Below, piece by piece: positions 4,856-54,529 of a stretch of DNA of 64,000 bases. Both the position numbers and the translations under genes were made by a program. Within the stretch, counting starts at the first letter, position 1. Each line of letters opens with the position of its first letter. Location: positions 940,391 through 1,004,390 of the forward strand of contig CAJNDT010000147.1 in assembly GCA_905221615.1 (NCBI GenBank), written 5' to 3'. The stretch comes from Symbiodinium sp. CCMP2592. Its lineage: Eukaryota > Sar > Dinophyceae > Suessiales > Symbiodiniaceae. Under the pieces are notes generated by a model that searched no databases, was not told where the DNA came from, and saw only the letters and a program-made list of their open reading frames with translations.

Positions 4856-5030
4856 TATGGGAGTTTTCGAAAATTAAGGGTACCTTTAAAGGGATTCCTG
4901 AACTATAAGGGTTCTATAGGTTTAGGGCTTCCGAGAATTAGGGGTACATTGTTTTGCGGGGTCCTTATAAGAAGGATCCTACTATGTAATGCGCTTTAGC
5001 AGGGCCCCCTATTTTCGGAAACTCCCATAT
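4856..5030. mobile_element. MITE family B split by a class X insert
   Basis: TATGGGAG and CTCCCATA ends, flanked by TA. The left arm (4864-4883) is followed by a 44-bp insert (4884-4927) that starts CTTTAAAGGGATT and ends TTTAGGG. The arm is then repeated at 4928-4947 (16 of 20 bases identical). Confidence 0.75.
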
Positions 5031-5104
5031 CTCGATGAATAAGACGAATCCTTGTTCAACCTTTGCTGCAATATGTGTCCGGTTCCTTTGTCTACCCTAC
5101 ATAG

Positions 5105-5150
5105 TATAACACCCTAAACCCTAAACCTCTAAACCCCTAACCCTTAACCC
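5105..5150. repeat. Telomere-like tract
   Basis: CCCTAAACCCTAAACC units that abut the coding-like block to the right. Confidence 0.75.
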
Positions 5151-5151
5151 C

Positions 5152-5464
5152 ACAGCCAAGACATCAGATCGGTACCCATGCTCACGCGCCTTTTTGTCAA
5201 CCGGCAACAGATACAAGAGTGTTTCGAAAACTTCCGGACACCCAACAACCTTGTATGACCTTGTGAAGAGAAGCTCGGAATAAGGGATGCCTGCTTTTCG
5301 GAAACGACCATCCGAATAGCGCCTTTTTAGTTCGCAATACTTGAATCATCGGTTACTGGAATACACTCCACAGGTATGTCACATGTCACGTGTCCTGGAT
5401 CAGCCCTCGTCTTCTGAGATAGCAGACTTCCTTGACACTCTTTCATCCAACTGGAGTATTGAAC
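5152..5464 (-). pseudogene. Frameshifted coding-like block
   Basis: A possible acceptor TTGATTAG|G precedes an open minus-strand frame (QYSSWMKECQGSLLSQKTR, GHVTCDIPVECIPVTDD). A one-base shift near 5346 leads into a second open frame of about 60 codons (YCELKRRYSDGRFRKAG, YSELLFTRSYKVVGCPEVF, LYLLPVDKKAREHGYRSD), which runs into the CCCTAAA tract. Unrecognised. The frameshift suggests a decayed fragment, but an intron junction could also explain it; a plus-strand frame overlaps the first part. Confidence 0.35.
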
Positions 5465-5643
5465 CTAATCAATCCCAAAACCGTACTCTACCTACTAACG
5501 GCCTGGATGCACAAAATATCTTGAAGGATCTGGGAGTAAACCCCAGACCCTCATACCCAGATCCCGAAACCCCGTGTGCTAAGGCATATTGAAGGATCTG
5601 GGACCCCCAAATGCTTCCCTTCAGATAACGCCGTAGGGTATAG

Positions 5644-5769
5644 CTGGAGGGTTTGCAGTACATGGTTCCAGACTGTTTTTTACCCTATGAGTTCTTACAG
5701 TGGCATCTTACATGTGCTTGCTATGACTTGAAGCCTGGCGCACATTCGTTCATGAAACAAAAGGTATAG
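5644..5769 (+). other. Coding-like segment with a possible donor
   Basis: Open frame after TAG, including MVPDCFLPYEFLQWHLTC and YDLKPGAHSFMKQK, ending AAG|GTATAG, which could be a 5' splice site. No family recognised. Confidence 0.25.
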
Positions 5770-6056
5770 ACAGCATAGAGGTCTCTGCATGCACATCTTC
5801 TTACCTGCAATAGAATATCTCGAGAGAATCACCTGTGAAATTATCACTGACCTGAAACCAAAACCCTAAACACTACACCCTGACGCGACGACCCCATCTG
5901 AAGGAACTAGGCGTCCGGCATGCAAACTCTACCCGAAGAGACTGAGAAGAGCCCGCCGGGCCCTTAAACGAAAGCAAATGATATGGTTTAAGGCTTAAGG
6001 TCTAGGGCTGCGCCCAAAGATCTAGAAACCTTAAACCCTAATATACTCCCCACTAT

Positions 6057-6122
6057 AAGGGGGTTTCCGAAAATAGGGGACCCTAACTTAAATAGTAGAC
6101 CCCTGTTTTCGGAAACCACCCA
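6057..6122. mobile_element. MITE family B, internally deleted
   Basis: Both arms (GGTTTCCGAAAATAGGGG and CTGTTTTCGGAAACC) are present, but the centre is shortened to give 66 bp instead of about 103. Confidence 0.75.
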
Positions 6123-6274
6123 TAAGAATGACGTTCAGAATCTTAGGCACGTTGGGGGTTGAGTACCCAAGCCCGAAAAGGGCTAACCTCCTCAAGTATG
6201 GTAGGATTCTACACATCCCGAGAGGTTAAAGGCTACTTCAACTCGGCTACGAAGTCCCCTACTTTACCCTAAAC

Positions 6275-6345
6275 CCTAATAGATCCCTTATGGATCCCTT
6301 GAAGGATCCCTTATAGTATCTTTAAGGAAGCCATTAAAGGTTACC
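6275..6345. repeat. Class X sequence without a clear host element
   Basis: CCCTAAACCCTAATAGATCC followed by repeated GGATCCCTT/ATAG motifs and CTTTAAGG: the complement of the inserts seen in split MITEs. Confidence 0.45.
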
Positions 6346-6356
6346 TTTAGCAACTA

Positions 6357-6451
6357 AAGAATTCAAACTCTGGCGGGACCTGCCAGTTCGCCTCTTTCGG
6401 GTCTGCATGGGAGGCAGCTTTCCCCGGTCCCACAGTGAAAAGTTCAGGAGG
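6357..6451 (+). other. Coding-like open segment
   Basis: About 31 open codons (KLWRDLPVRLFRVCMGG, SFPRSHSEKFRRL) ending at the G element. Unrecognised. Confidence 0.2.
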
Positions 6452-6728
6452 CTTACTTGGAGGTTCATGGGTAGTTATAGGGCCCCTTTGAAGGGGATCT
6501 AGGATTCTATAAGAGTATAGTTTGGAGTTTAGGGCTTACTTGGAGGTTCATGGGTAGTTGTAGGGTACCTTTAACGGGGATCTATAGGGATTCTATAAGG
6601 GTATAGTATAGGGTTTAGCGCTACATGGATGTTCAGGGGCAGTTATAAGTAGGGTTATAAGTCCCAGGGCTATAAGCATACTTCCCTTACTTATAACCCC
6701 ACTTATAGCTGCCTATGAACCTCGAAGT
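6452..6728. mobile_element. MITE family G with two successive X inserts
   Basis: The left end (CTTACTTGGAGGTTCATG...) occurs three times: 6452-6479, 6535-6562 (27 of 28 identical) and 6620-6647 (diverged). Between them are two telomere-like inserts (6480-6534 and 6563-6619), each holding GGGGATCTA and ending near GTTTAG. The rest of G follows, ending ATGAACCTCGAAG. Confidence 0.75.
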
Positions 6729-6729
6729 C

Positions 6730-6990
6730 GGATTGGGGGTTCAGGTTTCAGAGCTTTGGGCTTGGGAAACCGGGTTCAGGGCTTTGGCATCAGGGTTTAG
6801 GTTTGGGTCTAGGGTTTAGGGTTACATTCCTTTGGGTTCCATGCTCGATGCATGCGTCACAAAGCCCAACCTGAACCCTAAACCTTAAACCCCGAAACCC
6901 TAAATCCTAGACCCTAAACCCTAAACCCCTAAACCCCTAAACCCTAAATCCTAAACCCTGAGCCCCTAAACCCTAAACCCTAAATCTTAA
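6730..6990. repeat. Telomere-like tracts
   Basis: G-rich variants at 6730-6830 and C-rich CCCTAAA units at 6880-6990, so orientation flips across about 50 bp. Confidence 0.7.
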
Positions 6991-7195
6991 ACATGAGCAT
7001 CATAGAGTCCCCCGATCCTAGCATTACACTATCCGATGCCCCAGGAACTACTCAATACGTGCAGTGAGCCCTTGGGGCAGTGCAATTAAGAACCCAGAGG
7101 GTCCATATCTACCTATATCTACATCTGCATCTTTATTAAATCTTTCTTCCTCTTAAACATATATAATTTTACAATATATAAATATATATACATAT

Positions 7196-7950
<755 letters not shown>

Positions 7951-8084
7951 ATATATATATATATATATATACATACACATGTAAGTAAGTTACCATTGCG
8001 GAAGGAGGCCCCAAATGACCGTTGTTGTCATTCTTTTGGGGGTGCCTAATGCGATAGTTTTAGCAATACATGGACCAGTTTGGT

Positions 8085-8220
8085 AATATGCCTCCTGTGG
8101 GTTCTTTTCTCTACTGTGGACCCTTGAGGCACTGCAATGTAAGAAGCGATGCAAGAGAAACCCCTGGAAAAAGACGCCAAAGGGCAAGCCAAGCAAAAGA
8201 TTCCGGCGCAAACGACGGTT
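8085..8220 (+). other. Coding-like, basic segment
   Basis: Open plus frame LLWTLEALQCKKRCKRNPW then KKTPKGKPSKRFRRKRR. The minus strand is open too (7990-8211), so strand and even coding status are uncertain. Confidence 0.18.
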
Positions 8221-8221
8221 G

Positions 8222-8335
8222 AGGCTAAGGGCTTGATTAGGGCTTGGGGGTTTAGGATTTAGGGGTTCAGGCTGTAGCGTTTAGGGCTTAGGGCCTTTAG
8301 GGATTTATGGATTAAACGTTTAGAGCTTGACGGTG
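8222..8335. repeat. Degenerate telomere-like tract
   Basis: G-rich TTTAGGG/GGGCTTAGGG variants. Confidence 0.65.
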
Positions 8336-8439
8336 TAGGGTCCTCATCACAAAACTCACCAAACAATCATCTAGGAGGCTACCTGTATTGACACTAATTG
8401 GTATGTTTGCCTCTTGTCGTGTGTAAATAACTTTACAGG

Positions 8440-8819
8440 TATCTAGCGATCTATCCTTCTATGTGTCTACAGCTCCATCCTGCTATCAATCCACCCTACC
8501 ATCGTCTATCCGTCTTCCGGCCTATCTACCTGTCTATCTCTTGCCTTCAATCAACCTACCTGCCTATCGATCTGTCTGTCCATTTATCTGTCTGTCCACC
8601 TACTGTTTGTAGATCTGCTTATCTACCTACGTAGCCAATTTGATCGTCTCGAACAAAACCTGCTAATCTGCAACTAATCTGCACTGTCTATCTGGCCATC
8701 GTCTATCGACCCAAATTTCTACACAAGCTATTATAACTGCTATCTACCTATCACCTGTCTAAGTCTATCTAATCTAGCTAGCTAGAGATCAATTTCCACT
8801 CTCTCTCTCTCTCTCACTT

Positions 8820-8852
<33 letters not shown>

Positions 8853-8900
8853 TTCTGTCTCTCTCTCTGTCTCTCTGTCTGTCTGTCCGTCCGTGCGCCC
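8440..8900. repeat. Pyrimidine-rich simple repeats
   Basis: Degenerate CTAT/CTGT tetranucleotides from 8440 to 8780, then (CT)n and CTGT runs to about 8910. Confidence 0.85.
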
Positions 8901-9109
8901 GTCTGTCCGTCTCTGTCTTGCTGTCTATGTACCCATCCTTGTGTGTACATACGTACAAGCATATATGTCTTATTTCGCTGCGCAGTCTTCTCGCCAACTT
9001 ACTAATTAATGTAGGCACCAGATTAAGAAACCTTGGCCCTATAACCCCAATTATAGTAGGATTCATATAAGGAACCCAAGTAAAGTCCCGGGGTTCCTTA
9101 GTCAGGTTC

Positions 9110-9319
9110 CTATATTAATGAGGTGTTGATGTGTTGCTGGGCTTCGCATATTTCGACCTGCATTTGTGAGCTGGTGCCTTGCCCATACTGCAAGGTGGTC
9201 TCGTCGATCCAAATGTGGTCGACCGTACGAAGCTAAGGTGACAAGATCACGTCAATGGCACCACGAAGCCAGTAGACGGCAAGTGAGTACATGTGCTGTG
9301 GCGGACCATGTAATGCCGG
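9110..9319 (-). pseudogene. Coding remnant with one internal stop
   Basis: Reading the minus strand from 9319, about 69 codons are open except for one TAG: ALHGPPQHMYSLAVYWLRG, AIDVILSP, stop, then LRTVDHIWIDETTLQYGQG and SSQMQVEICEAQQHINTS, ending in TAG. GAG to TAG would explain the break. Its upstream edge is the tip of MITE F (GTTAAG|GCCCC, an AG that could be an acceptor). Another open minus segment (9586-9660, VHLQMSMFVFYIDGQNLKL) lies upstream of that element. Family not recognised. Confidence 0.35.
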
Positions 9320-9442
9320 GGCCTTAACAGTTTGAATAGGTTTTTTGGGCCCATTATGCTATACTTATAAAAAGGACCCACCCCCCCTCCCCCCCCCCCC
9401 AAAAAAAAAAAAAATAGTGTAGGTAGATATTAAGGCCCCTAT
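9317..9442. mobile_element. MITE family F
   Basis: Termini GGGGCCTTAACAG and TATTAAGGCCCCTA, with poly-C/poly-A expansion in the middle. F is the commonest family here. Confidence 0.75.
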
Positions 9443-9702
9443 ATGAAGGCTTCAAGGTTTTGGTGTCGGGGGCTAAGGGTCAGGGTTCACGGGAATGAGT
9501 ACTTCGGGTCAAGCTACAGATGCTGCATGTAGCTGCCCTGAACACTAAACCGGTGGCCTTGGCATCTGCCTTCTAAGCAGATCAGAAACGCAGCTTGAGA
9601 TTCTGGCCATCAATGTAGAACACAAACATAGACATTTGCAAATGCACACAGTCGCAATTCAGAGGCACGACTGATGGCTAGTTGTAGACCAGTAGTGCAA
9701 AG

Positions 9703-9918
9703 ATGCTAGGAAGAGTGATACCTTCAAAGACGGTACTGCCTGACTGGTTGCTTCAAAAGCTAGCCATACTTGTTGCTGTAGTTCTCACTGCAATCTTAAG
9801 CGGCACAACGGCACAACCTCCATCAACGTCCTCATTTCAATTCCAGAAACCTTCGTCGTCTAAACCTACACGCACCCCGACAGACTCGATATCCGGGTCC
9901 CAAGCCCTTGAACCCTAA
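9703..9918 (+). CDS. Short ORF with a hydrophobic N-terminus
   Basis: 71 codons from an ATG. Residues about 15-38 (LLQKLAILVAVVLTAIL) look like a signal anchor or signal peptide, followed by a Ser/Thr/Pro-rich tail. The end runs into telomere-like sequence, so the 3' boundary may not be real. Family unknown; the first exon of a secreted or membrane protein is one reading. Confidence 0.3.
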   Translation: MLGRVIPSKTVLPDWLLQKLAILVAVVLTAILSGTTAQPPSTSSFQFQKPSSSKPTRTPTDSISGSQALEP

Positions 9919-9964
9919 ACGTTAAACAGCTCATCCCCATATTGCTTTCTGGGTGTCCTAATTG

Positions 9965-10200
9965 TAGCTCTACAATAATCAACCCCAAACCCAAAGCCCC
10001 CAAACCCTCAAACCTAAACCCTCAACCCTAAACCCGTCAAACCTAAACCCGCAACCCTAAAGTCCCCAGACCTCACTTCTACCGTCTGTTCTGGTCGTGG
10101 CGCAGTTTCGGACTGTTGGCCGATCCAGGCGAAGGGGAATCCGTGTGTGGCTCGACACCCGTATGGTTTAGGGTGTAGGGGCTTTGGGTTTAGGGTTTAG
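9965..10200. repeat. Telomere-like tracts with orientation switch
   Basis: C-rich at 9965-10065 and G-rich at 10165-10200, flanking a GC-richer block (10070-10160) that is open in more than one frame and left unassigned. Confidence 0.65.
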
Positions 10201-10206
10201 GGATGG

Positions 10207-10321
10207 TTTACAGCACACCCCAACAAGTTGGAAACCGGATTAAGGCAAATAGTGCTGGGATTCCCTATACATTACTCTCAAGGACTAAGGCTGTTGGGTT
10301 TCCAACTGTTGGGCTTCTACT
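10207..10321. mobile_element. MITE family A' (diverged)
   Basis: Arms CAACAAGTTGGAAACC and GGTTTCCAACTGTTGGGC; the interior matches the copy at 36268. Confidence 0.7.
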
Positions 10322-10445
10322 TTGGGGTTTAGGTGTTTTGGCGTTTAGGCTAGGTAATTCAGGGTTTAGCTTGGGGGTTTCGGGTTTAGGGATTAGGCTT
10401 TGGGGTTTGCTGGTTTAGGGCTTAGCAATTACGGTTCGGGGTTTG
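10322..10445. repeat. Degenerate telomere-like tract
   Basis: G-rich TTTAGG/TTTGGGG variants. Confidence 0.6.
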
Positions 10446-10468
10446 CTTTTCTTGGATGGTCTCGGTCT

Positions 10469-10557
10469 TACCTGTAGCCGAAGAGACCTACCTTCTTAGG
10501 GTTCCTCATTATGATTTCTATATCCTCAAAACGGTAGGTTTTTTCGGCTACAGGTAG
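10469..10557. mobile_element. MITE family I
   Basis: TACCTGTAGCCGAA...TTCGGCTACAGGTA palindrome, with inner arms ACCTACC and GGTAGGT; TA at both ends. Confidence 0.8.
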
Positions 10558-10694
10558 GGGTTATGGTTTGGGATTTAGGGTTTGGCGTTTTTGTGAAACT
10601 CCACAAAGCGCTTTGGAGGTTGAGGATATCAGTTTATAGAGGGAGTCGGCGTGGAGAATGGGGGCCTGCCAGCCTTCGGTGGGAGGGTTTCGGG

Positions 10695-10803
10695 CCCAGA
10701 CCTTCCAAAATCTCTTAATTAAGGAATATACCTTAATTCATATTTGGGATCCTATTATAATTTAAGGTATATTCCTTAATTAAGGGATTTTGGGAGGTCT
10801 GGG
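10695..10803. mobile_element. MITE family E
   Basis: CCCAGACCTTCCAAAATC arm with inner TTAATTAAGGAATATACC, mirrored on the right. One of the best conserved families here. Confidence 0.88.
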
Positions 10804-11082
10804 GAGCTTGAGCCAAGCGTAAGGTTTGAGGGTTGAGGGCGCAGGTTACTCCAATGCATAGACGACAAGTAGTGCACCCTTCATGATATAGGAACCTGTG
10901 TAACAAAGATATACCCCAAAACCCTAGCCTAACTATAGATATATGAGCCGCTTTCTATGATTCTAGAGCAGTAGGCCTATCATATAGGTAAGAGAAGCTC
11001 CTAGAATGCTGCATGTTACTATGCCCCAGGACTTAGACTGTGACAAACAATAAGCAGCCCGAGGTTCCTTGATAAAGATCCA

Positions 11083-11171
11083 TCAAAGGGGAAAAGGAGG
11101 GACCCTTAATGAGGACCCCTAGCCTATAATGGGCTATATAATGGGTATATAATATAATAGCTATATTACCC
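11083..11171. mobile_element. MITE family H, one half
   Basis: Matches the right half of the complete element at 40573 (GGGGAAAAGGAGGGACCC) and ends in the TA-rich centre. Confidence 0.6.
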
Positions 11172-11296
11172 TCTCTCTCGTACGCTCTGTTGAATGCCCA
11201 AAAACCGTCACGGATTCCCAACCTCCCCATCTGAAAACTCAGGAGAGGCAAACTGTCATGTGCCCCGCAGCATCCCTTGCTTCCGAATCTGGTATA

Positions 11297-11324
11297 TCGT
11301 TGATATATATATATATATATATAT
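11297..11324. repeat. (AT)n
   Basis: Short TA dinucleotide run. 11325-11530 holds no recognised feature. Confidence 0.8.
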
Positions 11325-11529
11325 GGTACCCCCCCCCACAAAAACCCAAGGTTTCTATATGAGCTTTAGATACAAGCCTACTTACACTGGCCGATAGTCG
11401 TTGGTCTTTGGGGGGGCAGGGTGCCAATAACAACCCTGTTAAGGTGTAGGGACTAACATGCATGACACACCCCCCTTGTGGCTTTCATACAAGCCTGCAT
11501 ACAATAATCCTTATACCATTTCCTGATCC

Positions 11530-11690
11530 CAGGAGGCCTATTGAATTCAATAGGCCCTATTGAATTCAATAGGCCTTCTGGATTGAAGATTGAAGATTGA
11601 AGATGCCCTGGAAAAGTTTCCTGGGAGATCTTCAATCTTCAATCCGGGAGGCCTATTGAGTTCAATATGCCCTATTGAACTCAATAGGGT
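11530..11690. repeat. Compound palindrome cluster
   Basis: CCTATTGAATTCAATAGG, itself a palindrome, occurs at 11537-11554 and 11556-11573. Two relatives follow on the far side (11652-11688). Between them GGATTGAAGATTGAAG faces CTTCAATCTTCAATCC around a loop of about 25 bases. Single copy in the window and unlike the 100-bp MITEs. Confidence 0.75.
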
Positions 11691-11829
11691 TTATGTTGAA
11701 ATCGATCATGAGGGCCGTACGTAGAAGTGTGAAAATTGGGTTCAGGGGGTCAAAGTCTACCGCTGCGTTTGCGTACTTTTGGAGTACACGCATATGGTTT
11801 TAAGGGCTATGAAGAGAAAGTCATCAACT

Positions 11830-13030
11830 AAACATATGATACTACCTTTAAGCTTCCCGGAACGTATTCTATTGAATTACGCCCAGCTTAAATTTAGATA
11901 ACACTACTAGTTTTATGCAACAAATGCAGTTGGAATACTAAGAATATAATCGAGGGCTCAACCTATCGAACTGTATACTACTGAGGTATCAAAGGCACAT
12001 ACTTTAACGTCCATGTAGCTAGCAATCTATGCATGAATGTATATGTTCGATTCAATTATTGGAAAGACTACTAAATGCACCGTATATTATAATACTTAGA
12101 ACTGATTTGACATAAGTAAATAAACACTCCGCCTAAATAGGTCCGAGGATCTGGCCTATCCAGCTGTTTGCGTACTTGTGAAAATAATATTCTACAGCTA
12201 AATACTAAGCTACATCTTCATATAAGTATAACGTTGTCCCTACTGGCACTACTGTGAATATATTGCTTTCTGAGTTCTAATCGGCAGACAACAAACCCTC
12301 TATGCTATTCTTATATTTAAATCTGACGATTGTGAACTCAACAAGCCCTATGCTTGAATTGATCGCAGTCAGTAATCCGTATAAGTATGTCATTATCCCT
12401 GGGTGTAGTGATATCATATGAAGCATTATAAATATAGCTTTCTGTCTGTTCGTGTTAACTGACAAAGCACTTCATGAACAGGCTGTTTGGCTCCTATTCA
12501 AAAGTGTAGCTTCCAAGGTTCTACTATACTGCTTCTATTAAGCAGCTATCTGGGTAAATCGCAACAAGGAATCTCAAGCCATATTATTAACAATTAGCAG
12601 TTAACAGACCCTGTAAATTCGATTGTATAACCAATTGCTGAGTACTTAACCTTATTTTTCCAAGAATGAAATGGTGCATGCTAAATGGTAACACCGAGGT
12701 CTTATACTTAATCGGCATGTTTAAACTATAAGACTATATGCTTGATATCTCAAACATATAGTCTAAGAATACATGTCTTTGTAGGGCCACATCTGTAGTA
12801 ATTAACAAACCCCGGAAGTTCAATTCTATATTGAGCTGGCAGATAGTTAACCTTTTCTTTTCGCATACAATAAATGGTACACACTAAACGATGGCATCGA
12901 GGTACTATGCTTGGTAGGTGTTTTTAAACGTTACAAGTAGCTTGATTTCTTAAAACCAATAGTATAAGAATAAATGTGTTTGTGGGGTTGACCACATACT
13001 ACAACTGAAGCTAATAAAGCACACGGCATG
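11830..13030. repeat. Diverged ~200-bp tandem satellite, AT-rich
   Basis: Best seen by comparing 12605-12790 with 12806-12990: ATGGTGCATGCTAAA/ATGGTACACACTAAA, CACCGAGGT/CATCGAGGT and GTTTAAAC/TTTTAAAC recur about 202 bp apart. Earlier monomers with similar landmarks (CAAGCCCTAT, GGCCTATCC) are spaced about 190-200 bp. No TTTAGGG tract or MITE lies inside, unlike all surrounding sequence. Confidence 0.65.
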
Positions 13031-13299
13031 GGGCGAGTTTTCCACACGAAGTAAGCCGTCAACAGAATATGGCACTTGAATGGAAAACGTTTTGATCGTG
13101 ATCGCGCTTAGAATGGCTCTAGGCGAGAAAACCCAAACACACAATACCAACAAACAACGAAAAATACCACCAAAAACAAAAAACACTACCAAAAAAACAT
13201 TATTTCAGTACTCTTCCAGAATAGCATTAGAATTCTACATGAATGGGAGCACCCACCAATGCTCTTATCTGAAAACCTTGGTCTTTTTTTGGGGGGGGG

Positions 13300-13409
13300 G
13301 GTAGCATACATATAGATATGTATATATATATATATATATATGTGGATAAGTATGTATGTACATACATGAGCATATATATATATATATATATGTATGTACA
13401 TACATGAGC

Positions 13410-13442
<33 letters not shown>

Positions 13443-13460
13443 TCGAGAGAGACAAAGAGG

Positions 13461-13491
<31 letters not shown>

Positions 13492-13500
13492 TGTGTGTGT
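13300..13500. repeat. Compound microsatellite
   Basis: (TA)n blocks alternating with GTATGTACATACATGAGC, which appears twice, then (CA)n, (GA)n and (GT)n. Frames across it are artefacts. Confidence 0.9.
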
Positions 13501-13604
13501 TAAGAGCTACAAGTGTTGGCATTTGATAGGAGTTTGATTTAAGGCTCGGGATTGGTAGCTGACGTTCGGAATTGCCGGGATTCAATGTTGGATTTGTGGG
13601 TGTA

Positions 13605-22924: not shown

Positions 22925-23028
22925 TGTTGATGACATAAATCCTGTATTACCTTAAGGACCCTAGACTATGGGATTTTGATGGTATATTCCTTATTATGGG
23001 TAGTGCAGGATTTATATCATCAACCGTA
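22924..23028. mobile_element. MITE family D
   Basis: GTTGATGACATAAATCCTG and CAGGATTTATATCATCAAC arms. Confidence 0.88.
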
Positions 23029-24395: not shown

Positions 24396-24680
24396 TACTT
24401 GGAGGTTCATGGGTATAGTTATAAAGGTTCCTTAAGGTCTCTTTGAAGGGATCTATAGGGGTTTAGGGTTTAGGGTTTTAAGGTCTAGGGTGGTTATAAG
24501 TAGGGTTATATAAGTCCCTTAGATATAACCCCACTTATAACTACCCAGACCTTCCAAAATCCCTTAATTAAGGAATATGCCTTCATTCATATTTGGGATC
24601 CCATTATATAATTTAATAGGTATTATTCCTTAAATTATAGGGATTTTGGGAAGGTCTGGGAACCAATGAACCTCCAGGTA
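24396..24680. mobile_element. MITE family G with an X insert and a nested MITE E
   Basis: Left end TACTTGGAGGTTCATGGG. After TATAGTTATAA comes an X/TTTAGGG insert (about 24425-24490), then GGTTATAAG resumes G. The right arm is cut in ACTACCC by MITE E (24544-24660) and finishes AATGAACCTCCAGGTA. Confidence 0.75.
24544..24660. mobile_element. MITE family E nested in G
   Basis: CCCAGACCTTCC...GGAAGGTCTGGG inside the right arm of G; E is therefore the younger insertion here. Confidence 0.82.
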
Positions 24681-32800: not shown

Positions 32801-32966
32801 CTAGTTCTCCAGTATCCTACGAAAACCGGACAAAAGGTTAAGCTTTCAGTTTAGGGTTTAGGGTTTAGGGTTTAGGGACGAAAACCGGACAAAAGGTTAA
32901 GCTTTCAGCTTATGCAGGGATTATACTTCCCCACAAAGGTTAAAGGGCACCTACTCTCCTGCTAAG
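32801..32966. mobile_element. MITE family J split by four telomere repeats
   Basis: Family J runs from TAGTTGTCCAGTATCC to CCTACTCTACTACTAAG, with inner AGGTTAACCTTT mirrored by AAAGGTTAAAGG. Here 31 bp of the element (32819-32849, starting ACGAAAACCGGAC) is repeated perfectly at 32878-32908, with 28 bp of pure TTTAGGG between. Confidence 0.82.
32850..32877 (+). repeat. (TTTAGGG)4 insert with 31-bp flanking duplication
   Basis: Exactly four perfect TTTAGGG units. Perfect 31-bp direct repeats on both sides mark this as a discrete insertion event, not a decayed array. It is the cleanest example of the class in the window. Confidence 0.95.
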
Positions 32967-44475: not shown

Positions 44476-44489
44476 CTTAGATCAAGCCA

Positions 44490-45304: not shown

Positions 45305-45371
45305 GGTTTATAGGGTTTAGGGTTTAGGGGTTTAGGGTTTAGGGGTTTAGGGTTTAGGGGTTTAGGGGTTT
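45305..45371. repeat. Telomere tract on the 3' side of the long ORF
   Basis: TTTAGGG/TTTAGGGG units, ending five bases before the stop codon of the ORF at 45377. Confidence 0.9.
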
Positions 45372-45376
45372 CTTTT

Positions 45377-46540: not shown

Positions 46541-46579
46541 GTCTCGCCGCTTTCGGATGTGTGCACCCGTAGCCACTCA

Positions 46580-46648
46580 GGGGTTTAGGGTTTAGGGTTT
46601 TAGGGTTTAGGGTTTAGGGTTATGGTTTAGGGTCTAGGGTTTAGGGTT
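46580..46648. repeat. Telomere tract on the 5' side of the long ORF
   Basis: TTTAGGG units starting within a few bases of the upstream stop of the ORF; same orientation as the tract at 45305. Confidence 0.92.
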
Positions 46649-46759
46649 CGTTTATCTGTTAAAGGGACTCCCTGTTGGTATAGAAAGGAAGTTGACAAGC
46701 TTCGGCTTCCAAAATGATTAACGCTTGTGGCTCCAAGTAGCCAAACGGAAATATACTTA

Positions 46760-46863
46760 TTACCTGTAGTCTCCATTGTAGTTCTTGCTTTGGCTTAACC
46801 AAATATATAATTAGGATCCTGTAAAGTAACCCCAAAAAGGAACTACAGTGGATACTACAGGTA
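46760..46863. mobile_element. MITE family P
   Basis: TACCTGTAGTCTCCATTG faces CAGTGGATACTACAGGTA; TA at both ends. One arm recurs at 48427-48447. Confidence 0.78.
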
Positions 46864-46864
46864 G

Positions 46865-46990
46865 AAGTTCGACCCAAATATTCTGAATAGCCGCTTACGC
46901 CTTGAGTGACTTGAGACACGGTGTCCTCTGACTCGTTGGTGGCTCCGGTCTGGGTCCTCTCCAAGGCAATCCGATAAAACTCACACCCCG
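46865..46990 (-). other. Coding-like segment
   Basis: Minus frame ERTQTGATNESEDTVSQVT, QGVSGYSEYLG runs into MITE P. Unrecognised. Confidence 0.2.
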
Positions 46991-47125
46991 AAACCCGAAC
47001 GCTGCAAGCACTTAATCCTCTACCCTGAGACTTAACATAACCTGAAAACCCTTAACACTAGTCTATATCTTTCCAAAGCACGAGCCCTATACCCCAAACT
47101 GGGAACTTAAAGCAAGTCACCCTAT

Positions 47126-47127
<2 letters not shown>

Positions 47128-47160
<33 letters not shown>

Positions 47161-47169
47161 ACTGCTACG

Positions 47170-47205
<36 letters not shown>

Positions 47206-47245
47206 GCTGCTTCTACTGCAACTGCAACTGCTACGGTTCCTGCTG
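47128..47245. repeat. (CTG)n/(CTA)n microsatellite
   Basis: CTG repeats followed by CTA repeats and CTGCAACTGC variants. Poly-Leu/Ser frames here are artefacts. Confidence 0.95.
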
Positions 47246-47930
47246 CTCCTCCTACTATTGCTCCGACAGAGAAGAGCTCCTAGCCCCAAAACCCTGGAAG
47301 AAAAGCTTGGGGTTAAGGGTTCCCCCCTCAGCAAAAATCGGAGGCTGTATGCCCCAAGCTTGGGCATTGCAAGGCAGATTCTGGTGAGCTCTGAAATCGT
47401 ATGTACTCCGGCCCCAAAGGCACCAAATACTAAGCCAGTTAAAAAGCCCCATACCCCTCAATTAAGGAACGCTCCGTGTTCCGAAGGCTTAGATGTTAAT
47501 GCTGTAAGGATGACGGTTTCGGGTTTGGAGTTTAGGGTTCTGGACTCGTGTACGCCGCCGTGGGCAAGGGGTTAAGGTTGCAGTGTCAGGGGCTATGAGG
47601 TTTAACACTCAGGTGTTAAAGGTGGGGTTTGGCACTGCGTTAATTGCACGAGCCCAATACACTCAACAGCCTGTAGTCAAGAAATACTCCTAAAAACAAG
47701 GTAGGAAAACCTACGTGAGTTGTATATTTACACCATCAGCAATTACAATACCCTGATAGATCTCTGAAAGGGGCCCTTCCAAGGAAAGCTTGAAGGAACC
47801 AAGCGGTTTTGCTTGCTTATCAGGGATATTGCCTCTCCGTTCTTTTCGCAGTTGAGATTGGGGTTTGGGGGTGAGGGCTCAGAACCTGAAAAGCATTCCA
47901 ACGTCACAAAACCTTTATATACACAACCCT
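47246..47930. other. Unassigned sequence
   Basis: A plus frame continues from the microsatellite to 47575 (RRLYAPSLGIARQILVSSE) but its start is in the repeat; nothing else recognised. Confidence 0.25.
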
Positions 47931-47937
47931 AACCCTG

Positions 47938-48060
47938 TATGAGTGTCCGTGTACCAAAGTAGTACATAGTCTGACCCCAGCGTAACTATAAAGGGACGAC
48001 TTTCGGGCCAAAGTACATCTCATCTGAATACTTGGACTGTCAGGGTAGGCCCACCCACAA
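47938..48060. mobile_element. Palindromic element, family O, diverged
   Basis: GTCCGTGTACCAAAGTAG and GGCCAAAGTACATCTC with ACTTGGACTGTCAGGG end; related to 36989. Confidence 0.45.
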
Positions 48061-48182
48061 ACAGACTCAACCGTTATGGATCGTAAACCCTAAAACCAGG
48101 TCACTACAAACCCAAATCAGAAAACCTGAGGGTGGCAGGCCTGACTGACTGACCTGCTGTGCTCTGTCGTAAATCCGAAGCA

Positions 48183-48402
48183 TACTTGAAGGCTCATGGG
48201 ACTTAGTAAGGTTTTATAAGTAGGATATAATTAGGATAACCCCACTTAGGGGACTTATAACCCCAATTATAACCTACTTACTAAGTCCCATGATCCTCTA
48301 AGTAGACCCTAAACCCTAAACCCCATAGATCCCTTTAAGGAACCCTATAGATCCCTTTAAGGAGCCCTTTAAAGGAACCTAAGCCTCACGATCCTCTGAA
48401 TA
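48183..48402. mobile_element. MITE family G (subtype 2) with an X insert at its right end
   Basis: TACTTGAAGGCTCATGGG ... CCCATGATCCTCTAAGTA (to 48304), then an 82-bp insert (48305-48386) starting GACCCTAAACCC and containing GATCCCTTTAAGG twice. The element tip then repeats as CACGATCCTCTGAATA (48387-48402; 13 of 16 identical). Confidence 0.75.
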
Positions 48403-48459
48403 ATGTTGGTCAATCAGAGCCGGGACCTACAATGGAGACTACAGGTAGGGCTCCGCTTG

Positions 48460-48584
48460 CGCACGTACTGTAATAATAGTAATAAGAGTAATAATAGTAA
48501 TAGTAATAACAATAATAATCGTAATAATAATAGTAGTAATAATAATAACAATAATAATAACAATAATAGTAATAATAAGAGTAA

Positions 48585-48643
<59 letters not shown>

Positions 48644-48915
48644 ATAATAATAGTAGTAATAATAAAGATAATAATAATAATAGTAATAATAATAATAATA
48701 GTTATAATAATAGTGAAAATAATAATCGTAATAATAGTAATAATAGGAATAATAGTAATAGTACTAATAGTAGTAATAAGAATAAGTAAGAATAGTAATA
48801 ATAATAATGTTAATAATAAACATAGTAATAACAGTAATAATAATGATAACAATAATAGCAATATGTACAGTAATAATAATAATAATAGTAATAATAGTAG
48901 TAATTGTCATAATAT
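48460..48915. repeat. (AAT)n/(AGT)n microsatellite
   Basis: AATAGT/AATAAT triplets with a pure (AGT)n core at about 48585-48640. Poly-Asn/Ser/Thr frames are artefacts. A family P arm lies directly to the left. Confidence 0.96.
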
Positions 48916-49159
48916 AGGGGTCTCCTATACCCGGTTCTGCAGGGCGTTCTCGGGGGGTCGGGTAAGGCCACTCCCCTACTCAATTGGCACCCGAGTTACT
49001 GTGTCGCACACTCCGGCAATAGGATTGCGGCTTCGGGTTTGCTGCGTAGGTGTTCAGCAGCCACCTTTTAATTAGTGCGGTGTCCCAGCAGCGAAAAACG
49101 AGCTAGTGTAGACTAGAATGTCAACACTGCTGCACAGAACAAACTGAGGCCCTTATAAT

Positions 49160-49435
49160 ATGCCGATCGCCATAAACTCAGACAGTGCATACAAGGATTT
49201 TTGCCAGGCCTGGGTGGATCCATCGCCATCACCCCCGGCTCGGGCACCGATGTCCTGGTTTAGAAGTCGGTTTAGTGGTTTGGGGGCTAGGACTGGGATT
49301 ATAGTAGGCTACAAGGATCCCTCCAAAGGCTACAAGGATCCCTCCAACAACCAACATCTACACTCACCAGCTATATTGACCAGACAAGACGTGCGGTATG
49401 CAAGCAAATCTGTTTCGTTCGATATTCTACTATAG
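49160..49435 (+). CDS. Unrecognised 91-residue ORF with an internal duplication
   Basis: ATG start MPIAINSDSAYKDFCQAWV. A Pro/Ser patch follows, then GYKDPSKGYKDPS, encoded by two perfect 18-bp repeats (about 49306-49347), and a tail ILTRQDVRYASKSVSFDIL. Stop TAG. No domain recognised; balanced composition supports coding. Confidence 0.36.
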   Translation: MPIAINSDSAYKDFCQAWVDPSPSPPARAPMSWFRSRFSGLGARTGIIVGYKDPSKGYKDPSNNQHLHSPAILTRQDVRYASKSVSFDILL

Positions 49436-49439
49436 CCTG

Positions 49440-49820
49440 CACTGGATGACCAGTATTGTGGCCATGGAGCAACTAGGTAACCCAAAACCCTACAGTACAT
49501 GCCCCAAAACGTTCAACTCGAAACTCCCAGGGCAACCATGTGATATGATTTCAGTGCGCAATAGATGATGCAGAACCTCGAAACCACAAGGCCTTGAACA
49601 TCTGAAAAGCGAAAGCAGCAAACAAAACATCACCAAACAGACTCTGAAGAAACACCACAAATACCAACAAAACCCCCCCCTTAATTATAATTCGAAGCCT
49701 AAGCACGCCTTTAAGACTACCTGGGTGTCGAAGTTTTGGGGACAAAGGCCTGCAGGCTTCGCACTTTCATAAAGGGCCCCGACAAAAAGCTGGCTCTTGG
49801 GTCCAGGGTTTGGGGGCGTC
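49440..49820. other. No recognised feature
   Basis: Low repeat content; overlapping weak frames only. Confidence 0.3.
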
Positions 49821-49827
49821 TGAGAAG

Positions 49828-49932
49828 TACGGTTGATGATATAAATCCTGCACTACCTTAAGGACCCTAGACTATGGGATTAATGGTATATTCCTTCATA
49901 TGGGAAGTGCAGGATTTATATCATCAACAGTA
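49828..49932. mobile_element. MITE family D
   Basis: TACGGTTGATGATATAAATC and GATTTATATCATCAACAGTA. Confidence 0.9.
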
Positions 49933-50339
49933 TAACCTAGGCTCAAGTTAACTTTTCTCAAAAAGTGGCTGACGTCTAATGTCTGCAGGCGGCCAAGGAC
50001 AAAGGAACCACCGTTAAACGAAAAGTCTTGTACAGTTAGAACCCATGAACTACAACCCCGCATACAGCCCTACGCTGTAAACGGTGTCATTCTCAAACCT
50101 TTCGTAGCTACGACATGAGGCACCCATAGGTTGAAGCAGCCCCATAGAAGACCCACACCCTGAAACCTCCAACCCCAGAACCAAAGCCCGAGAAAATCCA
50201 TGCAAATCGCATCAGCCCGCTTGAAGCCCCTGCAAAAACTTGGTGACATGCTAACCTGGACATCAAAATCCGGTGGCAATAGGACCCTGCGTGTATGCGA
50301 TGTATGTTCGGCGCGTTTTGGTTCTTGGAACTTTAAACT

Positions 50340-51380
50340 TAAGCCCTAACAACTAAACCCTAAACCCTAAAGCCTCAACCCTGAACCCCTAAAACCTAAA
50401 CGCCTAAGCCCTAAACCCTAACTAAACCCCTGGGCCCTAAACTCCTGAAATCTAAACCCTAAACTCCCCCTCCCCCTAACGGCCGTAAGCCCTAAACCCT
50501 GAATAGCCCCACCAAATACCTTCTAATATACTATACATGCCCACTATTACTAGTTCATGGTCGGGATAGTATCAAAAATCTATACTTTAATTCCTTAGAG
50601 GGTTCAAGTACCCATTAAAATGTAAAAGGTTCCCCGACTATGACAAAGATTAAGGGGTAACCCGAAACCCTCAACTGTGAAACCCAAAACCCCCGAACCC
50701 CTAAATCCTAAACTCCTAAACCCAAACCCCCCAAACCCCTAAACCCTAAATGCTAAACTCCTAAACCGAAACCCCCGAACCTCTAGACCCTAAGCCCGAA
50801 ACTCCTAAACTCCTAAACCCTTAACCCCAAACTCCTAAACCCCAAACCCTGAGATAAAGAGCCCTTAACCCTTTATAGAACCCTTATAGATCCCTTGAAA
50901 GGAACCCCTACAGCCCTGAACTAAACCCCCAAATCCTAAACTCCTAAACCCCCAAACCCTATGAACCCTGAGCCCAGAGACCCCGAACCTCTAAATCCTA
51001 AACCCTGAACTACAGCCTCTAATATACCTTAAATGCCCACGATCAAGGGCTCTAAATCCTAAGCACTGACTTAAAATTGCCCTTAACCCTATAAACCCTA
51101 AATACCTATAGATAAACCCTGCAAGCCCTTAAACTTAAACCCTATAAACCGTGTAAACCTAAAATACCTATAGATAAATCCTATAAACCCAATAAGCCCC
51201 TATAAACCCTAAATACCTTTAGATAAACCCTATAAACCCTAAACCCTAAATACCTATTATAGATAAACCCTACAAACCCTATACACCCTTTAAACCCTTA
51301 AAAACCCCAAAACCACCAAAAACCCTTAAAGCGCCCTCAACACCCTATAAACCCCAAACGCCCCTATAAGCCCTTAAAGC
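50340..51380. repeat. Degenerate telomere-like array, about 1 kb
   Basis: The longest C-rich tract: CCCTAAA, CCTATAAACCC and CCTAAACTCC variants, with an X-like patch at 50857-50910 (CCCTTATAGATCCCTTGAAA) and a repeated AAATACCTATAGATAAACCC unit from 51090 to 51270. 50520-50650 is a non-telomeric break. Confidence 0.85.
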
Positions 51381-51479
51381 GCCCTCAAAAAAAGGCGCCT
51401 TCTCGGCCTTGGTGCCGGCCCAGCGCCTGGCGCGGCTCCTGAAGTGAAGAGATTGGTGCCCTCTTTTAAGGGTCCCTTT

Positions 51480-51985
51480 TTAAGGGGTCCCTAAGGTTTA
51501 GCGTTTAGGGATAAGGCAGTTTCGGGTTCAGGGGGTTTAGGGCTTAGGGGGTTTAGGGTTTAGGGGGTTGAGGGCTCTGGGATGTAGGGTTAGGGGTTTA
51601 GGGTTTGGGGGGTACCCCAATATCCCTTAATTAGGAAATATACCGTAGGATCCCTAGTATGACTTAAGGAACATTCCTTAATTGAGGAGGTTTAGTTTAG
51701 GGTTCAGGGCCGTTTCGGGTTAAGGGTTTATTTCTGGGTTTTGGCACCCAAAAAGGCATCAAAAACCAATAATGAGGAGTACTTGGAGCCTTGGGGGCAG
51801 TTGCTGTAGCGTTTGAGGCTTTAGGGCTTCATGGTCTATGGGTTTAGGGCTTTAGGGCTTGAGGGCTTAGCGTTTAGGGCGTTAGGACTTCAGGGTTTAG
51901 AGGTTTAGGGCTTTACGGTTTAATTCGGTTTAGGGTCTAGGGCTTTAGGGCTTAAGGGCTTAAGGGATTTAAGGTATGGGTGTGG
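51480..51985. repeat. Degenerate telomere-like array, G-rich
   Basis: Faces the preceding C-rich array across about 90 bp; TTTAGGG/GCTTTAGGG variants, interrupted by an E remnant and by 51725-51810. Confidence 0.8.
51613..51690. mobile_element. MITE family E, diverged and shortened
   Basis: CCAATATCCCTTAATTAGG and CATTCCTTAATTGAGG. Confidence 0.55.
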
Positions 51986-52051
51986 GGTTTAGGGGCTTTG
52001 GGTTTAAGAGCTGTCGATCCCGCCAGCTGTCGGCCCTCGTCTGGTACATTG

Positions 52052-52468
52052 CTAAAGGCCCTCAAAGCCGCAGCCAGGCGGAGGGACGACAGCCTCTTGT
52101 AGATGGGTCCACATGGGTCCCAACGAGCCTCGTGCCGCCTGGATCTTCTCGTCGGTAGCCAGAGAAGGAGTGCTCCGCTCCTGAACCTCCAGCTCGCCAC
52201 AAGCTCGCGCAAGGTCCTCGTCCAGCTTGGCACTGAGCGCGCGGACTCTCTGCACCAGTTGTTCCAGGTGAGAGCCCAGTGATACAGTCCATGCAGCCAG
52301 GGCGTCCTTGAGGGCCTGTTTGGCGCGAAGGTCCCCATCGACTCTTTTCGCAAGCTTGGACATAGCATTGGCATGTCTCTGAGCCAGCTGCTCCGCTGTA
52401 GCCTCGCCATCTCCGAGCGTCGGCCCGCGCCAGAGCTCGCTGGTAGCGCGAGCGCCAATTGCTTGCAA
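52052..52468 (-). CDS. Coiled-coil-like coding block, 138 codons
   Basis: GC-rich minus frame, strongly Ala/Leu/Glu/Gln-rich: ATAEQLAQRHANAMSKLAK, AKQALKDALAAWTVSLGSH, LEQLVQRVRALSAKLDEDL, CGELEVQERSTPSLATDEK. Heptad spacing of Leu/Ala suggests a coiled coil. No ATG at the edge (in-frame TTG; the first Met is about residue 36), so it is an internal exon or truncated copy. A second minus frame stays open past its stop (ALRAFSNVPDEGRQLAG), as if a one-base indel shifted the C-terminus. Telomere-like tracts flank both sides, as for the ORF at 45377. Confidence 0.5.
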   Translation of the reverse strand: MQAIGARATSELWRGPTLGDGEATAEQLAQRHANAMSKLAKRVDGDLRAKQALKDALAAWTVSLGSHLEQLVQRVRALSAKLDEDLARACGELEVQERSTPSLATDEKIQAARGSLGPMWTHLQEAVVPPPGCGFEGL

Positions 52469-52489
52469 GGGGTTGAGGGCTTGGTTGTA

Positions 52490-52570
52490 GCGGCTTGAAG
52501 GGCTGTAGGGTTTAAGGGCTCTAGGGTCTTAGGGTTTGAGGCTTTAGGGTCCAGAGCTTTAGGGCCGGTG
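52490..52570. repeat. Degenerate telomere-like tract
   Basis: GGGTTTAAGGG/TTTAGGG variants on the 5' side of the coiled-coil block. Confidence 0.65.
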
Positions 52571-52633
52571 GGAGCTCCTTGTCTATTGGTGTTCAAGGTA
52601 CTCCAACATCGTCAACCATGATGGCATTACTCC

Positions 52634-52792
52634 ATGGATAAAGAAATGATGTACCATCCGTGTCAGCACAAAGGCAAGGGGATAGTCGACACCAGGTGGC
52701 GTGGTGCATTGAGCAAGCTGGGGTTGTTGTTGCTAGTCGTGCCATTTCTGCTGATCCGGTTCTCTAGACAAGGGGCCGCAACTCGGAGGTGA
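52634..52792 (+). CDS. Short ORF with one predicted membrane span
   Basis: 52 residues from ATG: MDKEMMYHPCQHKGKGIVD, then a hydrophobic run LSKLGLLLLVVPFLLIRF bounded by Arg/Lys, and a short polar tail ending ATRR. Could be a single-pass peptide or a first exon (the stop overlaps GGTGATG, a possible donor). No family. Confidence 0.34.
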   Translation: MDKEMMYHPCQHKGKGIVDTRWRGALSKLGLLLLVVPFLLIRFSRQGAATRR

Positions 52793-52867
52793 TGGGTCAG
52801 TTGGCTTGAGCGGGTTTGGGTGTGGGGCTTATAGCCCTGGGAATCGACAAGGCTTGGAGCTTCGTGA

Positions 52868-53092
52868 TGCCATCTTTCGGTAACCTGTGTACTTCACGGC
52901 GAGTTCATCATCTTACAAAATGGTCACGATGGCCCCATGCATGGGGGTGACGCAGCAATGACAATCTATACTGAGATTCCCGAGAAGCGCAAAAAACACA
53001 CACAGACAGATGTTGAGTCTAAGTTTGTGAGGATGACTTGGGGTTTAGTATCTAGGATTTGTGAGCGCAAGCGGGAAGGATCAGGGGGCTAA
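52868..53092 (+). CDS. Coding block, 74 codons
   Basis: Open between TGA (52865) and TAA: HLSVTCVLHGEFIILQNGH, GPMHGGDAAMTIYTEIPEK, RKKHTQTDVESKFVRMTWG, LVSRICERKREGSGG. Internal Met at GPMHGG would give 46 residues. Same strand as the membrane ORF upstream, 75 bp apart; they may be exons of one gene, but the frame joins only through unproved splicing. Unrecognised. Confidence 0.42.
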   Translation, partial: CHLSVTCVLHGEFIILQNGHDGPMHGGDAAMTIYTEIPEKRKKHTQTDVESKFVRMTWGLVSRICERKREGSGG

Positions 53093-53221
53093 GTGCATAC
53101 AACTTGTGTGATTTAATGAAGCCCGTACGTGTATTAGGTACTCATCGGCCTGCTTCTGACAATGCTTACTCAGCTCCTGATACTTCAAGGAAGGCGACAT
53201 AAGGGATCCAAAAATCCAGCT
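53081..53221 (-). other. Coding-like segment, convergent
   Basis: 46 open codons after a possible acceptor GCTAG: IFGSLMSPSLKYQELSKHC, QKQADEYLIHVRASLNHTS. It overlaps the end of the plus-strand block by 12 bp. Unrecognised. Confidence 0.28.
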
Positions 53222-53413
53222 CTAGCATGCCCGGATAGCGCAGACCAAGAAGGGTTTAGGGTCTGGGTTTAGATCGTCCTCCTGCTATGCTGCCACGCCG
53301 GCTGCCCTGCGTGTAGGGGAAGCTTCTCCGTCTTCTGCAACTAGAGCCCTGAGCCTAATTGAACCCTCATAACCTACACCTGCACCCTAAACCCTTTCAG
53401 CCCTAATTAAACC

Positions 53414-53552
53414 CTAAACCTGAGAATTGTGAAATCTTCACGTCGCTTACAGGGTCACGTTTAAGGCCCAGAAAGTTTTCATTCAACAGAAGACCTGTTC
53501 GAAGAGGACCTCTGAAATATCAAGAAATAGTAGAGCAGCCATGATGGATGAT
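53414..53552 (+). other. Coding-like basic segment
   Basis: About 45 open codons: PENCEIFTSLTGSRLRPRK, FSFNRRPVRRGPLKYQEIV, stop TGA. Unrecognised. Confidence 0.26.
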
Positions 53553-53559
53553 GGAGCTG

Positions 53560-54005
53560 AGACCGCTACCATGCAAGCCGGAAAGCTTTAGGTAGTCCCA
53601 CACTTCATGCCCTGAATCTGCCTTAACCTACCTGTTTCTACATGTTTTGTAGCGCCCCTATTAATTCCATATTAAGGTGCATAATCAGAACCTACAGAAA
53701 GTGGGTGATGGTAGCAAGTATAACCCTAGAACCTATCGCCTAAAACTGCACACTGGCCACATCCCCGCCAGAAAGAGCCCCGAAGATGCAGGAGTCGATG
53801 TACCAAAACATCCACGAAGAAAACCGACGGTTTCGGGTTTAGGGTATAGGGTTTAGGGCCTACAACCCGAAGCCCCATGTGCCCTGGAAGCTAACATCCC
53901 GAAAACCACTGAACCCGAACACCACCTAGACCTGAAAGCTCCAAAGCCCGACCTGAAACTGCAAAGCCCGACACTCGGAACCTGAACTGAACCCTAAGGA
54001 GGACA
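53560..54005. other. Unassigned sequence with short telomere-like patches
   Basis: TTTAGGG variants at 53832-53858; a block at 53740-53830 is open in two plus frames. Confidence 0.3.
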
Positions 54006-54010
54006 GAAAT

Positions 54011-54216
54011 GGGAGGCTCCGAAAATTAGGGGTACCTGTTTTGGGATCCTTATGGAAAGGATCTTCTATTTAGGGTACTATATTTGGGTGGTTGTCAAAA
54101 TCATGGTCCGTTTTGGGGTCCCTAATATAGTATGGCACCTAATATGTAGGGTACCCAACAAGGGACCATAATTTCGACAACCACCCATGTGGGTCGCCTA
54201 TCTTCGGAAACTCCCA
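54011..54216. mobile_element. MITE family B containing a nested MITE C
   Basis: GGGAGGCTCCGAAAATTAGG and CTATCTTCGGAAACTCCC ends; the right half is interrupted by C at 54085-54187. Confidence 0.85.
54085..54187. mobile_element. MITE family C nested in B
   Basis: TGGGTGGTTGTCAAAATC and TTTCGACAACCACCCA inside TACTATATT/GGGTCGCC of B. Confidence 0.87.
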
Positions 54217-54329
54217 AATATGCCTGAGAAGAGCTCGGCCGGGTGTCACTCGACCTCGGCACGTGGATTCCAATTCGGAGCTGAACGGGGCTGATAAAGA
54301 GTTTTGGGAGATCGAGGGTTGGGGATTAC

Positions 54330-54529
54330 TACTGTTGATGATATAAATCCCTAGGGTTCCTTTAAAGGGACCTATAGGGATACCTTTAAGGGCTTCCTTT
54401 AAGGGATCTATAGGGTTTAGGCTCTAGGGTTGATGATATAAATCCTGCAGTACCTTAAGGACCCTAGACTATGGGATTTATGGTATATTCCTTATTATGG
54501 GTAGTGCAGGATTTATATCATCAACCGTA
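54330..54529. mobile_element. MITE family D split by a class X insert
   Basis: GTTGATGATATAAATCC is present twice, perfectly, at 54334-54350 and 54429-54445. Between is a 78-bp insert of repeated CTTTAAGGGATCTATAGGG-type sequence. The rest of D follows and ends CATCAACCGTA. Confidence 0.85.

Follow-up and report, generated by a model that had tools for sequence, protein, structure and literature searches.

Extra sequence at transposon ends and telomeric repeats at internal sites are both known from described systems. Plant Mutator-like elements (MULEs) can carry tandem terminal inverted repeats (TIRs), the origin of which has been discussed as slippage or recombination (PMC3310237); Pack-TIR elements have breakpoints skewed to the element interior (PMC8277862); and in the TERC-ITS class of vertebrate interstitial telomeric sequences (ITS), a piece of telomerase RNA precedes the repeats (PMC2246262). 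Dinoflagellate telomeres have been described as consisting of TTTAGGG repeats (PMC11453091). Described here are miniature inverted-repeat transposable elements (MITEs) that are split near their tips by telomere-like DNA in a 64,000-nucleotide stretch of Symbiodinium sp. CCMP2592 (contig CAJNDT010000147.1, positions 940,391 to 1,004,390), referred to here as the window (G000:C147:940391-1004390). Positions are those of the window unless prefixed L, which denotes places sampled or fetched from the genome (1,098,105,373 bases in 5383 contigs); fetched places were taken from the first 100 matches listed and are a non-random set.

At the end of a split element is an outer partial tip (~6–30 bp), followed by a stretch that we call X, by TTTAGGG repeats, and by the element again from its tip; in some copies of this tip module the outer partial tip is missing or degenerate. 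X is composed of units ending in GGG, for example CCTTTAAAGGG and ATCTATAGGG, and the usual insert in the D family reads CTAGGGTTCCTTTAAAGGGATCTATAAGGGGTACCTTTAAGGG(C)TTCCTTTAAGGGATCTATAGGG, then usually one to four TTTAGGG-type repeats. It is likely that this polar, telomere-like module goes back to one or a few acquisitions and has spread by transposition and by template switching guided by the tip.

The elements are ~100–125 bp long and fall into families with different tips: D (TAC[GT]GTTGATGATATAAATCC, with TA duplications), B (GGGAGTTTCCGAAAAT, with 4-bp duplications) and G (TACTTGGAGG-type, with TA duplications). They share two features with MITEs: terminal inverted repeats bound a short multi-copy element (at ≥70% coverage, a 253-kb sample contains 13 copies of D and 16 of B), and target-site duplications of family-specific length were recognized by eye in some copies, several others being mismatched. 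The split elements of the window, J, and two unsplit references are as follows.

1514..1687, plus strand: B-family split MITE; outer tip GGGAGT at 1514–1519, X-type stretch, TTTAGGG at 1584–1590, inner B from 1590.
4859..5026, plus strand: B-family split MITE; outer tip from 4859, X to 4920, TTTAGGG at 4921–4927, inner tip from 4928.
6454..6728, plus strand: G1-family split MITE; two successive X-telomere modules and three tip copies (6454, 6537, 6622).
24396..24680, plus strand: G1-family split MITE; outer tip, X, two TTTAGGG at 24462–24475, inner tip; another MITE nested at ~24548–24660.
32819..32908, plus strand: J; perfect 31-bp direct repeat (32819–32849 and 32878–32908) around (TTTAGGG)4 (32850–32877), with no X.
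48183..48402, minus strand: G2-family split MITE; full element 48183–48304, CCCTAAACCCTAAA, X, outer tip copy from ~48379.
54330..54529, plus strand: D-family split MITE; outer tip TACTGTTGATGATATAAATCC at 54330–54350, module at 54351–54428, inner element to 54529.
22926..23028, plus strand: intact unsplit D copy, used as reference.
784..904, plus strand: intact unsplit G2 copy, used as reference.

Sequence reading and self-BLAST place the inserts where the initial annotation had reported them, each G-rich from the nearer outer tip inward, J excepted. What had been counted there as eight split MITEs comprises J and six MITE loci, the latter belonging to three tip families; these are not eight independent cases. 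The polarity rule does not extend to J, which lacks X and for whose 31-bp repeat no inverted partner was found nearby; J therefore lacks the inverted termini of a MITE, and its ‘nearer tip’ is undefinable. It is an event separate from the module-bearing MITEs. The reported order, X first and TTTAGGG last, holds for the other X-bearing copies, the D insert at 54330 being without an exact TTTAGGG and ending in TTTAGGCTCTAGG. The reported duplication of the tip is incomplete in two copies: the outer tip at 1514 spans only ~6 bp, and the inner tip at 24396 is no full duplicate, having apparently lost 13 bp.

Flanking the entire split B element at 4859–5026 is ATAT (4855–4858 and 5027–5030), so that its outer partial tip is a real element end. 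The two units of the element at 6454 are 84% alike over 116 bp by self-BLAST, and thus probably represent one event that was duplicated. Similar B modules, comparable to that of the 1514 copy, were seen among the fetched B places, and the module of the D copy at 54330 is 98.7% identical to that of L048.

The genome-wide count that the initial annotation had called for shows a strong skew in all three families. Counting tips preceded by an inward G-rich word (TTTAGGG) or by a C-rich word (CCCTAAA) over the whole genome gave 399 G-rich against 81 C-rich for D, 4197 against 992 for G, and 396 against 103 for B-type tips. Reversed-pattern controls gave 0 throughout, except for 12 + 15 with the G-rich G pattern; gap widths were the same for both orientations in D and G, and in B were 0–9 (C-rich) against 0–4 (G-rich), favouring the C-rich count.

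The two polarities also differ in the form of the junction. Among the 100 G-rich D junctions listed of 399, 90 are fused without TAC, six have an intact TAC[GT] and four are of other kinds; 65 of the 81 C-rich D junctions end in TAC[GT], the remaining 16 being mostly point variants by reading. For B, the 100 G-rich junctions listed of 396 comprise 54 reading TTTAGGG|[TC]TTCCGA, 36 apparently intact tips and 10 others, and 93 of the 100 C-rich junctions listed of 103 differ from an intact GGGAG[TC] by no more than two mismatches. For G, 58 of the 100 C-rich junctions listed of 992 read CCCTAAACCC|TA|CTTGGAGG, that is, an ordinary insertion at TA in telomere-like DNA. Fused junctions are thus mostly G-rich inward, above a background of ordinary insertions. 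That background is well accounted for by plain nested insertion, in which MITEs enter telomere-like DNA at TA and the splits are MITEs lying beside such DNA; the 58 G and 65 D cases show that such events are common. As an account of the splits themselves it is very improbable, being contradicted by the polarity ratios where equal numbers are predicted, and it leaves both the outer partial tip and the homology of X unexplained.

Several junctions recur, namely TTTAGGG|TTGATG, TTTAGGG..TACTTGG and TTTAGGG|TTTCCGA. A search at the other D junction for the opposite polarity (GATGATATAAATCCN{0,8}CCCTAAA) gave 56 matches, mostly variants of the normal interior and with no clear class of opposite inserts, although at least one overlapping pair among them (contig C3190) runs directly into CCCTAAA repeats. 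A scan for tip duplications within the sample returned 41 events, many of them low-complexity or telomeric noise and about nine, by reading, G-rich inserts at MITE tips; the window copies 1514, 4859, 24396 and 48183 were not among the events listed.

Homology of the inserts points to common descent. Among the 20 D loci fetched, 14 carry X with homologous inserts, and 10 of these have a clear outer tip (score 18 or more); the distinct numbers are 13 and 9, as L052 repeats L034. The extra tip copy at the end, multiplied together with the element, that characterizes tandem-TIR elements is thereby found at 10 of the 20. The six D places without X (L033, L036, L037, L038, L045 and L051), four of which had been chosen as non-fused junctions, represent MITEs that adjoin telomere-like DNA, or are arranged in other ways. 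In 20 G places, X was found by pattern in 14 and by eye also in L059, L068 and, further in, L072; it is absent from L054, L063 and L066. These 20 loci comprise three G tip subtypes with recurrent inserts. In a comparison of 38 modules, made before the later B places and excluding nine places without X, the repeat L052 and the short L070, within-group identity was 0.81 for D, 0.79 for G1 and 0.85 for K (one pair), against between-group means of 0.63–0.72 and 0.52 for shuffled sequence; the nearest neighbour of 28 of the 38 modules lay within its own tip group. Outer duplications match by eye around five split copies (ATAT at 4859 and L082, AAAT at L085, ATAA at L077 and GATG at L083). Unsplit family members served as paralogous stand-ins for empty sites.

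The module is not tied to one end of an element. Of 14 distinct D modules, the window copy included, 12 lie at the F end of the asymmetric interior and two (L041 and L042) at the R end, the latter best matching F-end modules at 0.88 and 0.89. The G2 copies 48183 and L059 likewise carry the module at opposite ends, their interiors being 0.88 identical with one reversed and 0.58 otherwise; against the unsplit copy at 784–904, the G2 interiors are 0.95 identical reversed and 0.88 forward. Polarity relative to the tip is the same at either end of one element type.

Nor is the module confined to one family. Six of the 14 places fetched as B (L077, L079, L080, L081, L083 and L084) belong to a further family, M (CTAGGATGCCCAGTAG ... 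TACTGGGTATCCTAG; tips read directly, 4-bp duplications). The insert in these six reads X-TTTAGGG-TTTCCGAAAATTAGGGG, that is, X-TTTAGGG-TTTCCGA[AG]AATTAGGGG, a fragment resembling the B tip, and is followed by M from its tip. The flanks ATAA and GATG stand on both sides of L077 and L083, respectively, and those of L079 and L080 are cut off. The chimeric B-tip/M junction occurs 68 + 85 = 153 times in the genome, and some of the 396 B-type junctions are therefore those of M elements. At L062, a G3-type module with two TTTAGGG and 14 bp of G3 tip precedes a B element, the B part being 0.75–0.81 identical, in reverse orientation, to three B copies (baseline 0.48). Occurrence at both ends, together with the crossing of families in company with a tip fragment, looks like DNA copying and not like the work of telomerase.

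The initial annotation had proposed instead that many independent breaks occurred near MITE tips, the outer 3′ end being extended by telomerase and then rejoined with duplication of the tip, and had named descent from one ancestral split element as what would speak against this. The polarity on which it was based stands, in three families and at both ends of one element type; short shared bases recur at the D and B telomere–tip joins, and J, a pure array within a 31-bp duplication, is of the form expected. Repeated healing is nonetheless unlikely. Common descent is largely what is seen (14 of 20 D loci homologous, and recurrent G inserts), and polarity counts alone cannot show telomerase action where copies share descent. 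Most junctions and inserts are shared within families, J being the exception, where independent sites with independent junctions would be expected. X is not TTTAGGG, and its homology within families, the foreign tip fragments and a chimeric junction repeated 153 times suggest that existing modules were copied.

A genome-wide class of telomeric inserts within short duplications was considered as a candidate, since 23 of 382 telomere-like cores scored ≥24 against 0.73 for shuffled flank pairs, the tandem array of L019 included. With L019 left out, 12 of 354 cores reached this score where 15.7 were expected at random positions; such a class is therefore not claimed, and the figure also argues against independent telomerase breaks. 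A strict filter left seven duplication events, three with a telomeric insert, and a looser one 49, of which 11 had an insert more than half telomere-like.

An RNA origin can also be envisaged, in which a reverse-transcribed piece of telomerase RNA, or of a subtelomeric X-(UUUAGGG)n transcript, was inserted at MITE ends with target duplication and then transposed. In the split copies read, X precedes TTTAGGG on the G strand, as in TERC-ITS (PMC2246262), and the likeness of X across families exceeds the shuffled baseline. This origin is doubtful in view of L062, where about nine tandem X units (GGGTTCCTTAAAGGGATCTATA) extend over the first ~210 bases, in module-first orientation, before the two TTTAGGG; X can thus expand in the manner of a minisatellite, unlike a unique RNA. 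It is also at odds with the location of X, 12 of 18 sites in a 298-kb sample lying inside MITEs by reading, 11 of them near tips. Improbable to a similar degree is that telomerase, copying a longer RNA containing X, extends flank-side ends cut at MITE termini and rejoined to the transposon end, with the modules becoming heritable ends that spread between families. Were this so, telomerase activity would leave a lasting, amplifying mark in mobile DNA.

Weighing against the spread of a single module by copying are the following. Within-group identity is hardly or not above the between-group level in G3 (0.73), G2 (0.70) and B (0.64, one pair), so that this measure supports common descent clearly in D and G1 and weakly in G2 and G3, and does not show it in B. 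In D, identities of modules and of elements are uncorrelated (Mantel r 0.16, p 0.24, n=14), which is expected if modules move between elements, yet is no proof of single descent. Duplications are mismatched around L076, L081, L084 and the window copy 1514. The outer tip is absent in L064, L065, L071 and L080, for which transposition of a split unit gives no account, and is short in L044, L067 and L084. K in L006 and the element at L024 7070–7153 have X without TTTAGGG, and K in L007 has one TTTAGGG within X. L031 2263–2385, the sole candidate exception to the polarity rule in the sample scan, may be a tip duplication, and its insert is C-rich. The direction of transfer between families is one that we infer, and X might arise anew from a single RNA template.

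We nevertheless favour copying of the module, as proposed above. A break near a tip would have been filled with telomere-like DNA once or a few times. Thereafter, a growing 3′ end may enter a MITE from its flank, copy a short part of the tip and leave the template, the tips being able to pair into a hairpin; it would then copy the module from another split element and resume at the start of the recipient. Template switching of this kind, or gene conversion, guided by the tip would spread the module between elements, and transposition of split copies would multiply the product. Gap filling and FoSTeST in Pack-TIR elements (PMC8277862) and the tandem TIRs of MULEs (PMC3310237) provide precedents. 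With the tip serving as homologous guide, its orientation, and hence the polarity of the module, is copied along, which gives a uniform rule without repeated telomerase action. Repeated healing is not needed for most of the copies examined; telomerase is possible as the maker of the first module, the source of which could also be a telomere-like transcript or the abundant telomere-like DNA.

Such DNA is plentiful in this genome. The exact 21-mer (TTTAGGG)3 occurs 73,488 + 75,164 times, overlapping matches counted, and 16.4% of the bases in a 288-kb sample fall in words with at most one mismatch to the repeat. At ≤1 mismatch, TTTAGGGTTTAGGG gave 202 matches against 0.11 in shuffles, telomere-like words being above chance. 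The 21-base dinoflagellate spliced leader had 217 + 212 = 429 exact matches (reversed-pattern control, 0), from which we regard the genome as the nuclear one of a dinoflagellate. L034 (contig C34) and L052 (contig C812) are identical in sequence, so the assembly is redundant in places and some sequences are counted twice genome-wide.

Other arrangements were observed in the sampled loci. L074 has a B tip preceded by TTTAGGG repeats without X, and L078 has repeated modules. Inside an X stretch at L010 ~9034–9100, between CTATAAGG repeats, is a sequence with AGTGCA/TGCACT ends that looks like an insertion with an 8-bp duplication. At L019 2571–4540, a minisatellite-like array alternates a 47-bp GGGTCTCGGCC... 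unit with ~200 bp of degenerate CCCTAAA repeats. L021 (~2100–9300) comprises tandem copies of ~2.5 kb, with a short (CCCTAAA)n tract between two of them; from a motif in it, this DNA may be part of a gene for ATP synthase subunit c. L001 366–678 and L030 2015–2205 each have three successive direct copies of one 15–26-bp sequence, with differing and partly telomere-like fillers. The window also holds an (AAC)n microsatellite at 7196–7941 (746 bases, 97% matches). Eight of its open reading frames (ORFs) gave two weak Pfam matches, both in one ORF and below curated cut-offs (Apolipoprotein, E 0.0023; DUF6415, E 0.025). A tRNA scan of the window found none, and one ORF searched against PDB had no match. 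In an Rfam scan confined to the window there were 0 matches at gathering scores, and the J region had no match in a plasmid collection.

What appears to be new is that a polar tip module is heritable and has apparently passed from one family to another; among the papers listed in searches of open-licence literature, which mostly excludes subscription journals, none was seen to report telomere-like modules at MITE tips. A non-coding module that keeps a nearly strict orientation is common to MITE families with different tips and multiplies with them. Interstitial telomeric DNA may thus be spread by transposons instead of by repeated telomerase repair.

Among the closest described systems are the plant MULEs with tandem TIRs, in which there is likewise an extra tip copy at the end, amplified with the element (PMC3310237); the extra tip here is ~6–30 bp, a telomere-like module of fixed polarity sets it apart, and the MITE families in which it occurs are several and differ in their tips. 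Gap filling and FoSTeST in Pack-TIR elements likewise place foreign filler in a TIR element, by template switching at microhomology, with multicopy cases multiplied by transposition (PMC8277862); here a small telomere-like module, shared by several families, is the filler, and breakpoints lie at the tip. Dinoflagellate introner elements share the heavy activity of short elements (PMC11453091). Vertebrate ITS, including TERC-ITS, are short arrays of telomeric repeats where breaks occurred, and duplications accompany a few of them (PMC2246262 and PMC8537989); J resembles this duplication class. They are described as single-locus insertions, whereas the modules of Symbiodinium reside in multi-copy elements with thousands of tip junctions.

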